Assembly (NCBI RefSeq): GCF_006974145.1
Contig: NZ_CP039456.1
Location: forward strand, 2,448,001-2,512,000
From: Changchengzhania lutea
Lineage (GTDB): Bacteria; Bacteroidota; Bacteroidia; Flavobacteriales; Flavobacteriaceae
Length of the DNA: 64,000 nucleotides
Direction: 5' to 3'
Numbering within the stretch: position 1 is the stretch's first letter; every line of letters starts with the position of its first letter. Under the pieces are notes generated by a model. It saw nothing but the letters and a program-made list of their open reading frames with translations. It was not told where the DNA came from and did not search any database. Shown piece after piece: positions 39,688-64,000 of this stretch. The position numbers and the translations under genes are program-made.

Positions 39688-39805
39688 GAAGCTGTAAGAT
39701 AAAAAATAATACCATTTCTTGTTTGAAATTACTGTAAAAGAAAATGATGATTTTTTGCTTTTTAAAAAATAGAAAAACAAAGCATAGCCATGGTTATGGT
39801 TTAAT

Positions 39806-39966
39806 TGAACTCATCTTGACTTTTTCTATTTCCTAAAAAACGGCTATAATTTATCCATATTTCGTTATTTTTTTTATTCGTAGCGATGCTATGCCTTTCA
39901 AAAAGTATCTCATCTGTACAAATTTTATCTCGTTTTCGGTTAAAAACAAAAGTCAAGATGAGTTCA
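39806..39966. repeat. 161-bp element bounded by perfect 19-bp inverted repeats
   Basis: TGAACTCATCTTGACTTTT at 39806-39824 is exactly repeated in reverse complement at 39948-39966, with 123 bp between. No gene lies inside. It looks like a small non-autonomous transposon (MITE) or a pair of insertion sequence ends. No target duplication was found. A group II intron starts 8 bp after its right arm. Confidence 0.7.
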
Positions 39967-39974
39967 TTTTATGT

Positions 39975-59841: not shown

Positions 59842-59937
59842 ATTACTATGAAAACAGGAATCTCATGAAATAAAAGCGGAATGACAAAGGAAAAACAGCA
59901 GATTGGGAAGTCCTTACCCTTTGGGGAAGGATTTAGG

Positions 59938-61269
59938 ATGGGGCGTTTAGTCGTATTAGGAGGTGGAGAAAGTGGTGTTGGAACGGCATTACTGGGAAAA
60001 GAAAAAGGGTTCGACGTTTTTGTTTCTGATAAAGGAAAAATAAAAGAAAAATATAAACAAGTTCTTATACATAATGCCATTGAATGGGAAGATGAAATGC
60101 ATACGGAGTTAAAAATCCTTAATGCTGATTTAGTGATGAAGAGTCCAGGCATTCCAGATAAGGTGCCTTTGATAAAGCGAATTCGCGAACGGGGGATAAA
60201 AATCGTTTCAGAAATTGAATTTGCATCCACATTTACCGATGCTACCATAATAGGGATTACAGGAAGTAATGGGAAAACAACCACCGCCACCTGGACGCAT
60301 CATATTCTAAAAGAAGCATTACATGTGGGATTGGCAGGCAATATTGGAGACAGTTTTGCAAAACAGGTTTTAGAAGAGGATTATAAAAACTATGTGCTGG
60401 AGATTAGTAGTTTTCAATTGGACGATATCATAGATTTTAAACCGAAGATAGCGGTAATAACAAACATAACACCAGATCATTTAGACAGATACAATTATGA
60501 ATTTCAAAATTATATCGATTCTAAATTTAGAATAGCAATGAATCAAACAAAGGATGATTATTTAATATATGATGCCGACGATGAAGTTATTACCAATCAT
60601 TTAAAACAACACCCAGTTCAATCCACATTATTACCATTTTCATTAACAACACCTATTGAAAACGGAGCGTATTTAGAAAAAGACAAAATAATAATAACAA
60701 TAGATAACAATAAAATAATTATGCCAACTACAAACCTGAAATTAGAGGGATTACACAATACTAAAAACGCTATGGCGGCCTCTACTGTGGCACATCTATT
60801 AAAAATTAGAAAGCAGACCATACGAGAAAGTTTAGAAAATTTTCATGGTGTCGAGCACCGATTAGAGCAAGTGCTTAAAATTAATAAAGTGCAATATATC
60901 AATGACTCGAAAGCAACTAATGTGAATGCCACATATTATGCTCTGGAAAGTATGGATGCACCAACGGTATGGATTGTTGGAGGAGAAGATAAAGGAAATA
61001 ATTATGCGGAGTTATTTCCGTTTATTAATGAAAAGGTTAAAGCCATTATTTGTTTAGGTGTGGATAATGAAATGCTTTTGCACACGTTTGGCAATATGGT
61101 TGATATTATAGTTGAAACCCAATTTATGAGTGAGGCGGTTAAAATTGCTTATAAAGTTGCCGAGGCAGGTGATAACGTTTTATTGTCTCCTGCTTGTGCC
61201 AGTTTCGATTTGTTTGAAAACTATGAAGACCGAGGGCGTCAATTTAAAAATGCCGTTAGAAATTTATAA
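59938..61269 (+). CDS. murD: UDP-MurNAc-alanine--D-glutamate ligase MurD
   Basis: A 443-residue Mur ligase. N-terminal UDP-binding VVLGGGESGVGTALL (about 4-18), ATP loop ITGSNGKTTT (about 106-115), NITPDHLDRY and NDSKATNVNAT. It adds D-glutamate to UDP-MurNAc-L-Ala. The frame is open back to 59881, but the start at 59938 (MGRLVVLGGGESG) fits the family. The bases just before it form a weak CCTT...AAGG hairpin. Confidence 0.95.
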   Translation: MGRLVVLGGGESGVGTALLGKEKGFDVFVSDKGKIKEKYKQVLIHNAIEWEDEMHTELKILNADLVMKSPGIPDKVPLIKRIRERGIKIVSEIEFASTFTDATIIGITGSNGKTTTATWTHHILKEALHVGLAGNIGDSFAKQVLEEDYKNYVLEISSFQLDDIIDFKPKIAVITNITPDHLDRYNYEFQNYIDSKFRIAMNQTKDDYLIYDADDEVITNHLKQHPVQSTLLPFSLTTPIENGAYLEKDKIIITIDNNKIIMPTTNLKLEGLHNTKNAMAASTVAHLLKIRKQTIRESLENFHGVEHRLEQVLKINKVQYINDSKATNVNATYYALESMDAPTVWIVGGEDKGNNYAELFPFINEKVKAIICLGVDNEMLLHTFGNMVDIIVETQFMSEAVKIAYKVAEAGDNVLLSPACASFDLFENYEDRGRQFKNAVRNL

Positions 61270-61366
61270 CCCATCTTGATCCTTCTAAAGTCAAGAAACT
61301 GTTATGGGTTAAGTAAATAATTAATAATAAAACAAATTTTTCCTTCTGGGAAATGTCTGTAGGACA

Positions 61367-62560
61367 ATGGGAAACATATTTAAAAACATAAAAGGAGACC
61401 GGTTAATATGGGCTATAGTAGCATTACTGGCCATATTGTCATTTCTGCCCGTATATAGTGCAGCTAGTGATTTGGCTTACGATAAGTATGATGGCAACAC
61501 ATTTATAGCCTTTGTCAAGCATTTTATGCATTTGTTTTTAGGCTTTTCCATTATGTATGGTGTGCACAAAATACCGTATCGATATTTTAAAGGATTGTCT
61601 CTAGTCATGATTCCAATTGTATTGGTGCTGTTGGTTATTACCATGTTTCAAGGTACGGTTATGGGAGGTGCCAATGCTAGTAGGTGGATTAAAATCCCCA
61701 TTGTAGGCATGTCATTTCAAACCTCTACGTTTGCTATGGTGGTGCTTATGGTGTATGTCGCGCGTTATATGTCTAAAATTAAGGATATATACGTGTCTTT
61801 TAAGGCGAGTATATTGCCTTTGTGGATTCCTGTGTTTTTGGTGTTAGCCCTCATATTGCCATCTAATTTTTCAACGGCGGCGATTATGTTTTTAATGGTC
61901 ATGATCTTGGTGTTTTTAGGAGGTTATCCTGTACGTTATTTAGCTGTAATTATTGGTACTGGTTTGGTGGCTTTAACCTTTTTTGTCATGGTCGCAAAAT
62001 TAACCACAGGATCCCTAAATGTAAAGGTGACGACTTGGGAAAATAGAATTAAGAATTATTCAAATGGCGAAGATACCCAGGCCGACTATCAAATTGAAAA
62101 GGCAAAAATAGCCATTGCGTCTGGAGGGATAAAAGGTGTTGGCCCAGGTAAAAGTATACAGAAGAATTTTTTACCGCAATCCTCTTCAGATTTTATATTC
62201 GCCATTATTATTGAGGAGTATGGGTTAATTGGAGGGTTTCTGATTATTATTTTATACATGTGGCTATTGTTTAGAATAGTCATCGTAGCCCAAAAATCGG
62301 ACACTATTTTCGGGAAGCTCTTAGTGCTCGGTGTGGGATTGCCCATTGTGTTTCAAGCACTCATTAATATGGCTGTTGCCGTGGAGCTGTTTCCTGTTAC
62401 AGGACAAACATTACCCTTAATTAGTAGTGGGGGTACTTCGATATGGATGACCTGTTTGGCCATTGGCATTATATTAAGTGTGAGCGCCAAACGTGAAGAA
62501 ATTAAAGAAAAAGAAAGTTTAGAAGATAATCCGTTAGAAATTTTATCAGAAGCTATATGA
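61367..62560 (+). CDS. ftsW: Septal peptidoglycan polymerase FtsW
   Basis: A 397-residue SEDS protein with about ten membrane helices. Key stretches: GGANASRWIKIP (about 103-114), YQIEKAKIAIASGGIKGVGPGKSIQ (about 241-265), FIFAIIIEEYGLIGG (about 275-289) and PLISSGGTS (about 351-359). It polymerises lipid II at the septum with FtsI. Its TGA stop is the left edge of the inverted repeat that bounds the four-helix-bundle cassette. Confidence 0.94.
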   Translation: MGNIFKNIKGDRLIWAIVALLAILSFLPVYSAASDLAYDKYDGNTFIAFVKHFMHLFLGFSIMYGVHKIPYRYFKGLSLVMIPIVLVLLVITMFQGTVMGGANASRWIKIPIVGMSFQTSTFAMVVLMVYVARYMSKIKDIYVSFKASILPLWIPVFLVLALILPSNFSTAAIMFLMVMILVFLGGYPVRYLAVIIGTGLVALTFFVMVAKLTTGSLNVKVTTWENRIKNYSNGEDTQADYQIEKAKIAIASGGIKGVGPGKSIQKNFLPQSSSDFIFAIIIEEYGLIGGFLIIILYMWLLFRIVIVAQKSDTIFGKLLVLGVGLPIVFQALINMAVAVELFPVTGQTLPLISSGGTSIWMTCLAIGIILSVSAKREEIKEKESLEDNPLEILSEAI

Positions 62561-62590
62561 TTTAAGATATACGATTTGTGAATTACGATT
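62559..62590. repeat. Left arm of 32-bp inverted repeat around the four-helix-bundle gene
   Basis: Starts GATTTAAGATATACGATTTG and matches the reverse complement of 63027-63058 at 27 of 32 positions. Its first two bases belong to the ftsW stop codon. Confidence 0.85.
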
Positions 62591-62687
62591 GAAAAGCATG
62601 AAACATCCATAACTAAAAGTTCGATACCTAAGGACAATGATTATATGGATGCTACATGTGACCAATAAAAAGCAATAGAATAAACAC

Positions 62688-63041
62688 ATGAAACAAATAT
62701 TAAAAAATAGAACAAAGAAATATGTAGCTGATTGTTGGAGTCTCTGCAATAAGTTTCCTGTCTCAAGAGAGTACAATGCATTTTATAATCAGTTAATAAG
62801 ATGCTCAAGTTCGGTTGAGGCGAATTATAGGGCAGCTTGTAGAACAAAATCTGATGCAGATTTTATTAATAAATTAAAAATAGCAGAAGAAGAGGCGGAT
62901 GAGAGTATGTATTTTTTGGAATTATTATTGGAATTAAGTGATAAAGAGGATAAAGAAATAAAAAGATTGCATGCTGAAGGGAATGAGTTGTTATCAATAG
63001 TTGTTGCGTCTATTAAAACGATGCGTAATCGTAAATCATAA
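62688..63041 (+). CDS. Four-helix-bundle protein (S23/IVS-type)
   Basis: A 117-residue, all-helical protein of the S23 four-helix-bundle family, first known from open frames inside intervening sequences of 23S rRNA genes. Typical stretches: DCWSLCNKFPVSREY, QLIRCSSSVEANYRAA and KLKIAEEEADESMYFLELL. Its function is unknown. It sits between ftsW and murG, an unusual place, and is bounded by 32-bp inverted repeats; its stop lies within the right arm, three bases before the murG start. Confidence 0.9.
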   Translation: MKQILKNRTKKYVADCWSLCNKFPVSREYNAFYNQLIRCSSSVEANYRAACRTKSDADFINKLKIAEEEADESMYFLELLLELSDKEDKEIKRLHAEGNELLSIVVASIKTMRNRKS

Positions 63042-63058
63042 ATCGTGAATCGTAAATC
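63027..63058. repeat. Right arm of 32-bp inverted repeat, overlapping murG start
   Basis: Reads AATCGTAAATCATAAATCGT and then GAATCGTAAATC. It spans the stop of the four-helix-bundle gene and the GTG start and first codons of murG. It pairs with 62559-62590 at 27 of 32 positions. Confidence 0.85.
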
Positions 63059-64000
63059 TATCAAATATAAATTCATATTGTCTGGAGGAGGTACAGGAGG
63101 TCATATATATCCTGCTATCGCTATTGCAAACGAGTTAAAATCTCGTTTTCCAGATGCAGACTTTTTATTTGTAGGAGCAAAAGATAGAATGGAGATGGAG
63201 AAAGTACCAGAAGCGGGTTATGCGATTAAGGGACTTTGGATTTCTGGTATTCAACGAAAACTAACATTAAAAAATGCAATGTTTCCATTTAAAGTAATTA
63301 GTAGCTTATGGGATGCCCGTAAAATTATAAAGTCTTTTAAGCCGGATGTCGCCATTGGTACTGGTGGTTTTGCCAGCGGTCCATTATTACAAATGGCTGC
63401 ATATAAAAATATCCCGAGTTTAATACAGGAACAAAATTCATATCCTGGAATTACCAATAAGTTACTATCTAAAAAAGCAAAAAAAATATGTGTGGCATAT
63501 GATGGTTTAGAGCGGTTTTTTCCAAAAGATAGAATTAGAAAAACTGGAAATCCAGTACGTCAAGGCTTATTGAATATTGAAACTAAAACGGTAGAAGCAA
63601 AAAACTTCTTCAACTTAAAGCATGGTAAACACACACTCTTGGTTTTGGGAGGCAGTTTAGGATCGAAGCGGATAAATGAATTAATAGAAAATAAATTAGA
63701 TTTTTTAGATACTAAAAACATACAGATTATCTGGCAATGTGGAAAATTGTATTATCAGCAGTATAAAATCTATAATAACACGAATAATGTGCAGGTGCAT
63801 GAATTTTTGAATAATATGGATTTTGCCTATGCGGCGGCTGATATCGTGATTTCTAGAGCGGGAGCGAGTTCGGTTTCCGAGCTTTGTATTGTTGGTAAAC
63901 CGGTCCTGTTTATTCCATCCCCTAATGTGGCAGAAGACCATCAAACCAAAAACGCCATGGCTGTGGTAAAAAACGATGCGGCACTATTAATTAAGGAATC
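63045..64000 (+). CDS. murG: Lipid II synthase MurG (cut by window edge)
   Basis: About 318 codons are in the window; the C-terminus is missing. The enzyme adds GlcNAc to lipid I. The N-terminal lipid-binding loop [17 protein letters not shown] (about 12-28), [11 protein letters not shown] (about 105-115), [10 protein letters not shown] (about 127-136), [14 protein letters not shown] (about 199-207) and [11 protein letters not shown] are clear. The only fitting start is GTG at 63045 (translated [10 protein letters not shown]); an in-frame TAA lies just before it. The first codons come from the inverted-repeat arm, so the original start may have been replaced. Confidence 0.95.

Follow-up and report, generated by a model that had tools for sequence, protein, structure and literature searches.

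The window analysed here is a stretch of 64,000 nucleotides from Changchengzhania lutea (contig NZ_CP039456.1, positions 2,448,001 to 2,512,000 of the forward strand). In its dcw operon, a segment of about 0.5 kb separates ftsW (61367-62560) from murG (GTG at 63045 onward). The features of the locus are as follows, in window coordinates.

61367-62560, + strand: ftsW, the upstream host gene (Pfam); its stop codon TGA (62558-62560) lies within the left arm
62555-62590, + strand: left arm, an array of ACGATTT-like words (alignment, fold)
62596-62658, + strand: extra hairpin between the left arm and the S23 gene (RNA fold)
62688-63041, + strand: S23 (23S_rRNA_IVP) four-helix-bundle gene, 117 aa; its last codons and stop lie within the right arm
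63027-63061, + strand: right arm, the reverse complement of the left-arm words; it includes the stop of S23 and the start of murG
63045-63998, + strand: murG, the downstream host gene, which continues beyond the window (Pfam); its GTG start and first residues come from the right arm
59842-59937, + strand: mraY/murD junction, without S23 in the window; this site is used in 28 of 42 named relatives with a dcw element

The identities of the flanking genes FtsW and MurG were obtained from Pfam, which also confirmed mraY and murD of the window. The enclosed gene had been predicted to encode an S23-type four-helix-bundle protein, and its product indeed scores over the cut-offs of both PF05635 (57.4 vs. 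33.8 bits, Pfam) and TIGR02436 (81.7 vs. 24 bits, NCBIfam); PDB entry 2rld is a solved relative (E 9.2e-12). The element is not within an rRNA gene, its position being between ftsW and murG. GTG 63045 is the earliest murG start candidate among the listed open reading frames. Comparison with relatives showed an intact FtsW C-terminus and a MurG that is intact from the first conserved block onward, indicating that the junction gained the segment.

For the ends of the segment, 27 of 32 arm positions had been reported to match, with 18 of 20 in the inner part, and a recount on a gapped alignment returned the same values (27/32 over the 32-column span, 18/20 over the inner 20 columns, counted by eye). 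In this alignment the arms (62555-62590 vs. 63027-63061) reach a score of 40, while the maximum among shuffled sequences was 28 (0 of 200 as good). Upon folding of the RNA from 62545 to 63075, the arms paired in both the minimum free energy (MFE) and the centroid structure (z -3.94; 0 of 100 shuffles as good), and the predicted helix contains the stop codons of ftsW and S23 as well as the murG GTG at 63045. The original prediction of an inserted cassette resembling an intervening sequence (IVS), with arms able to pair in the mRNA and to cover the murG start, is supported. Rfam has no family for the element; it returned three matches, all far under the gathering score. Two other repeats were seen in the window. 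The murD/ftsW spacer (61267-61311) carries an inverted repeat (TAACCCAT...ATGGGTTA), and positions 39803-39969 hold a separate inverted repeat family (GAACTCATCTTGACTTTTT...), a similar copy of which is found near 343945 of the same genome.

Relatives were compared at the ftsW/murG junction, where an insertion should leave an empty site. Among 40 genomes called up (this one and 39 others), 30 gave loci, this genome included; the other 29 represent 29 genera of the family or order. S23 is absent near ftsW/murG in all 29 of these genera. Matches to both genes were obtained in 28 of the 29 (L031 has no ftsW match), and the two genes abut or overlap in 21 of these 28 by a computed estimate. Two of the genera have long ftsW/murG spacers (L016, 90 nt; L020, 75 nt).

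Named genomes were scanned with the S23 protein of the window; of 89 relatives found, 80 were kept. The gene lies in the dcw operon in 42 of the 80: at mraY/murD in 28, at ftsW/murG in 12, at murD/ftsW in one (L259), and before mraY in one (L279). Six loci (L213, L214, L215, L236, L259, and L279) were placed from their coordinates, and L214 ends before murG at a contig end. The insertion at ftsW/murG is thus not unique to this genome. The element occupies four dcw junctions, and ACGATTT-like words were recognised by eye in the 28 dcw elements inspected, rather than all relatives having the gene at one site without conserved inverted repeats. A stable ancestral neighbour was excluded as a reading, because S23 is absent at ftsW/murG in the 29 other genera and the named relatives use different junctions. 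Positions differ even within a genus: Flavivirga rizhaonensis (RZ03) has the element at ftsW/murG, Flavivirga algicola (Y03) at mraY/murD, with an ftsW/murG spacer of 15 nt. Yeosuana aromativorans JCM 12862, a cultured species like these two, also has it at ftsW/murG. In all 11 ftsW/murG relatives that hold murG, the first murG start candidate is located 0-14 nt past the S23 match, within the right array. The window and L213 have about 127 nt between ftsW and S23, the remaining ftsW/murG elements about 30-45 nt.

No more than 14 of the 42 elements in dcw reach a cross-arm score of at least 28, and RNAalifold analysis of 14 mraY/murD elements showed two-sided changes in only three arm-helix pairs, each in one sequence. 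The two dcw positions are intermingled in the S23 protein tree, in which many forks are weak. Parsimony gave eight junction changes on 40 rows (13 of them ftsW/murG), a weak result because many forks are poorly supported.

Four dcw relatives carry a remnant at a second junction (L212, L224, L229, and L256). Among 25 ftsW/murG spacers of species with a mraY/murD element, decayed elements were recognised by eye in L212 (197 nt) and L224 (148 nt), and arrays of other words in L217, L219, and L240. Among six mraY/murD spacers inspected from named species with an ftsW/murG element, those of L229 and L256 hold a lone left arm; no lone left arm was found in the mraY/murD spacer of the window. The L212 remnant scores 126, 117, and 107 against ftsW/murG elements and 104 against the full copy of L212 itself; L212 is a metagenome bin, and strain mixing may be behind its two copies.

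The mraY/murD spacer of the window (59842-59937) has a repeat ending AGTCCTTACCCTTTGGGGAAGGATTTAGG just before the MurD start. The same ending occurs in L210, L229, and L256, and slightly changed in L279. The ftsW/murG spacers of L020, L217, and L219 contain AGAGAATAGAGA-like arrays without S23; the L020 array resembles the arms of the S23 elements L006 and L105 (scores 37 and 36; shuffles: 95th percentile 34, maximum 41).

The genome of C. lutea has 13 S23 matches, including the one described here. Five are broken or partial (two with an internal stop codon, three more partial). The cross-arm match stands out in nine of the 13 (matched or exceeded by no more than 3 of 200 shuffles) and is weak in L009 (13 of 200); L001, L005, and L011 have no cross-arm match beyond shuffles. 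Arm words vary among these copies. Fixed terminal repeats of the type found in insertion sequences (IS) or MITEs were rejected, because the words differ between copies of the same genome. Of the predicted inverted-repeat ends it holds that the arms can pair, but they are word arrays varying from copy to copy and not the fixed terminal repeats of one transposon. The first 400 kb of the genome together with the window contain 28 inverted repeats with a score of at least 32, among which, by eye, that of the ftsW/murG element alone is a word array.

A probe of the whole genome with the ACGATTT word detected the element itself and two places without S23. One of these places (L291, 1490-1558; near 625733-625779 of the genome) is a hairpin with ACGATTT-like words between the genes for tRNA-Thr and tRNA-Gly. 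The other (middle of L293; near 3267652-3267680) consists of ATCGTCA-type heptamers in frame within mnmE (Pfam MnmE_helical and TrmE_N). The assumption that arms occur only together with S23 was dropped on account of these two arrays, at about 625.7 and 3267.7 kb. Such S23-less arrays, in this genome as at ftsW/murG of L020 and Gelidibacter, may be remnants, or may have arisen without S23.

The distribution of S23 was surveyed in 60 Flavobacteriaceae genomes, this one included. The gene is present in 45 of these, with up to 16 copies. For closer analysis 82 loci were taken (13 from this genome, 29 from the search, and the 40 best-scoring among the matches listed, skipping those of this genome); as these are the tops of score-ranked lists, weak matches are under-represented. 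Among these listed matches, both neighbours have the direction of S23 in 80 of the 82 loci, and in the other two the upstream gene is opposite; the background for such placement is 165 of 313 genes (first 400 kb of the C. lutea genome). The proposal that the S23 family uses protein operons is supported. At phylum level, 116 of the 148 Bacteroidota genomes searched contain PF05635, and both neighbours have the S23 direction in 23 of 30 phylum loci. Combining the family, phylum, and genus samples and removing duplicates (L191 = L176, L190 = L164) left 147 unique loci, with same-direction neighbours in 133 of the 147 and in 60 of 70 contexts; both neighbours are opposite in one context. Nine relatives labelled as belonging to other phyla are all from metagenome bins, and eight of these loci have a cross-arm score of at least 32. 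Phages yielded a single record (30% identity to the window S23) and plasmids 13 records (all under 60%), neither being an obvious vehicle.

The 82 loci among the matches listed fall into 42 contexts, 15 of which are common to at least two genera, and mean S23 identity is 62% within a context vs. 36% between contexts. Five S23 orthologues from one site gave dN values of 0.000-0.134 and dS values of 0.22-2.57, the larger of which are saturated (dN/dS 0.00-0.06); the low dN relative to dS indicates that S23 is kept as a protein at that site. Sites kept across genera, together with a right array that holds the murG start both here and in all 11 relatives with murG, are what one would expect of a domesticated regulator, in which S23 and its arms would control the downstream gene through feedback, the helix acting as a switch that hides or exposes the start codon (here the murG GTG at 63045). 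We regard this as unlikely, since copy number changes fast (11, 7, 1, and 1 S23 matches in four species of one genus) and since, as noted, 5 of the 13 C. lutea copies are broken or partial. The shared contexts and the purifying selection at one site would equally suit an ordinary operon gene, a small host S23 gene that has settled in operons and whose arms would be due to chance or to AT-rich slippage.

Own left and right arms match far more often than arms from different loci. Among the 82 listed family loci, a score of at least 30 is reached by 35 of 82 own pairs vs. 134 of 6642 mismatched pairs, and by 2 of 1160 random placements; no random placement (0/1160) scores 32 or more. The corresponding values for the 30 phylum loci are 14 of 30 own vs. 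16 of 870 mismatched pairs. At a score of at least 28, the counts are 70 of 147 loci vs. 202 of 20542 pairs from different sites, and MFE folds with at least 15 left-right pairs were obtained for 116 of 147 own combinations vs. 135 of 441 constructs in which the right arms had been swapped. In many loci the flanks consist of words, mostly of 7 nt, arranged as inverted arrays that match within a site and differ between sites; 65 of 130 left spacers are clearly periodic, with period 7 in 44 and period 8 in 13. Sixty-nine loci have clear arms and suitable flanks. In 58 of these, the left arm starts at most 15 nt from the upstream stop codon, and in 49 the right arm ends between 15 nt before and 30 nt past the downstream start (median 5 nt before). 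These distances were taken from the arm alignments; those from MFE folds were set aside as being biased by the ends of the folded stretch. By eye, the left flanks of L068, L070, L001, L075, L046, and L062 look self-complementary, so that a hairpin without the right arm may form.

Arms and protein also change together. Over 3168 pairs of loci from different contexts (82 loci among the matches listed), S23 identity correlates with arm similarity at r 0.099 (left-left), 0.137 (right-right), and 0.105 (left to the other's right), each with 0 of 500 permutations as good; these correlations are small because words are common only to pairs above about 50% identity. Word type tracks S23 kinship even where the operons differ, an effect that is weak but exceeds the permutations. 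Within shared sites, the own mean for pairing was reached by 24 of 2000 within-site permutations for the 82 listed loci and by 0 of 5000 for 102 loci from 25 sites, some of which are close orthologues, so that the latter permutation overstates independence. Cross pairing exceeds own pairing at three of seven multi-genus sites. Word arrays gain and lose units between close species.

Such gain and loss of units, and the fact that strong arms are seen in only about half of the loci, would again fit an ordinary gene. That reading is nevertheless largely refuted by the arm tests, both the matched-vs.-mismatched comparisons and the within-site permutations, and it also has to face the random placements, the clade-word correlation across operons, and the relatives with different dcw junctions and remnants; we consider it very unlikely. 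A transposable element acting at the level of DNA, with S23, perhaps together with a host enzyme, reading the word arrays as DNA ends and RNA pairing being incidental, is an improbable but somewhat better candidate. It would account for the copies at several dcw junctions, the lone arms and the remnants, for the hairpin between the two tRNA genes and the heptamer array within mnmE, and for word types that track the S23 clade. It does not account well for the strong sense-strand and operon bias or for the site-dependent variation of the arms, which fixed terminal repeats would not show. A target duplication is not established, the junctions being overgrown by arrays, and we know of no catalytic motif in S23.

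Known systems offer several partial parallels. The 23S rRNA IVSs of Coxiella and Leptospira, as described in the relevant passages of PMC4990558, resemble the element in having a sense S23 gene, complementary ends forming a stem, and a size of about 0.45 kb. For Coxiella, the same passages report that RNase III cuts in the stem of the S23-encoding IVS and that heptamer repeats of variable number adjoin the S23 frame, another likeness to the element; there the authors doubt that the IVS-encoded S23 is expressed and describe the roles of S23 proteins and IVSs as unknown (PMC4990558). Site occupancy is sporadic in both cases (for the element, 0 of 29 other genera vs. 12 named loci at ftsW/murG). 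Unlike the rRNA IVSs, the element resides in protein operons at stop/start junctions, with several copies per genome and site-specific words. Avd of diversity-generating retroelements (DGRs) belongs to a related protein family, according to the part of PMC10053308 concerned with it. However, a scan of up to two flanking genes in either direction, within the limits of the window, gave mraY, murD, ftsW, and murG as neighbours of the element, with no reverse transcriptase or template repeat among these. Intergenic TAACTGA heptamer repeats (MacGregor 2015; PMC4679880) are likewise arrays near stop and start codons, some of them in Bacteroidetes, but they are direct repeats of one fixed word, and the main text of that report does not contain "S23" or "helix bundle". 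The 23S_rRNA_IVP genes in cas loci are S23-family genes within operons, for example between cmr3 and cmr2; they were read as a CRISPR-Cas association, and the passage in question does not mention flanking arms (PMC3936711). MITEs and IS elements share short length, inverted ends, and remnants with the element, but the ends of the latter vary between copies and its sole gene is S23. No account of armed S23 elements in protein operons was found in the open-access literature, although absence there is no proof of novelty.

We consider it rather likely that the segment is a member of a widespread class of S23 intervening elements at operon junctions of Bacteroidota, similar to the rRNA IVSs, in which a helix loops out S23 and is probably cut by RNase III. 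The sequences show S23 in sense, inverted arrays of about 7-nt words in many loci, matching within a site, and the potential to pair in the mRNA. They also show purifying selection on S23 at the one site tested, and related species that carry the element at different dcw junctions, with remnants. We infer a course of events that involves a helix in the cell, cutting by RNase III or bypass by ribosomes, recognition of the arms by S23, and a way of moving. In the polycistronic mRNA, pairing of the arms would produce a helix from which the S23 gene is looped out, so that the ftsW stop comes to lie next to the murG start. RNase III would cut this helix as in 23S rRNA IVSs, freeing the S23 message and separating the host messages; alternatively, the helix would stay uncut and ribosomes would cross from stop to start. 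S23, from a family with a solved pentameric member, would be translated from the mRNA of the host operon and is probably specific for the word type of its own arms, in which case the two would evolve and move together. Most likely it is a selfish or tolerated element, able to persist at junctions because the harm it does is limited by the helix.

On a more tentative level, it is possible that intervening elements of mRNA form a large class in the operons of Bacteroidota that has so far gone unrecognised. The S23 proteins of this class would each recognise the heptad words of their own arms and would spread, in the sense direction, to stop/start junctions within essential operons. The insert would be excised or bridged by means of the folded arms, which would keep the host operon working, and the rRNA IVSs would be one branch. 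The many natural copies, some of them in named isolates, would allow arms and protein to be varied separately, and the class comes with a prediction of which arms belong to which S23. It also offers paired arrays that undergo sequence turnover, the two halves tending to change in concert. If this interpretation is right, many polycistronic mRNAs of Bacteroidota would have processing or bypass points beside genes annotated as "four helix bundle protein", and the S23-family genes in cas loci may be the same kind of passenger.
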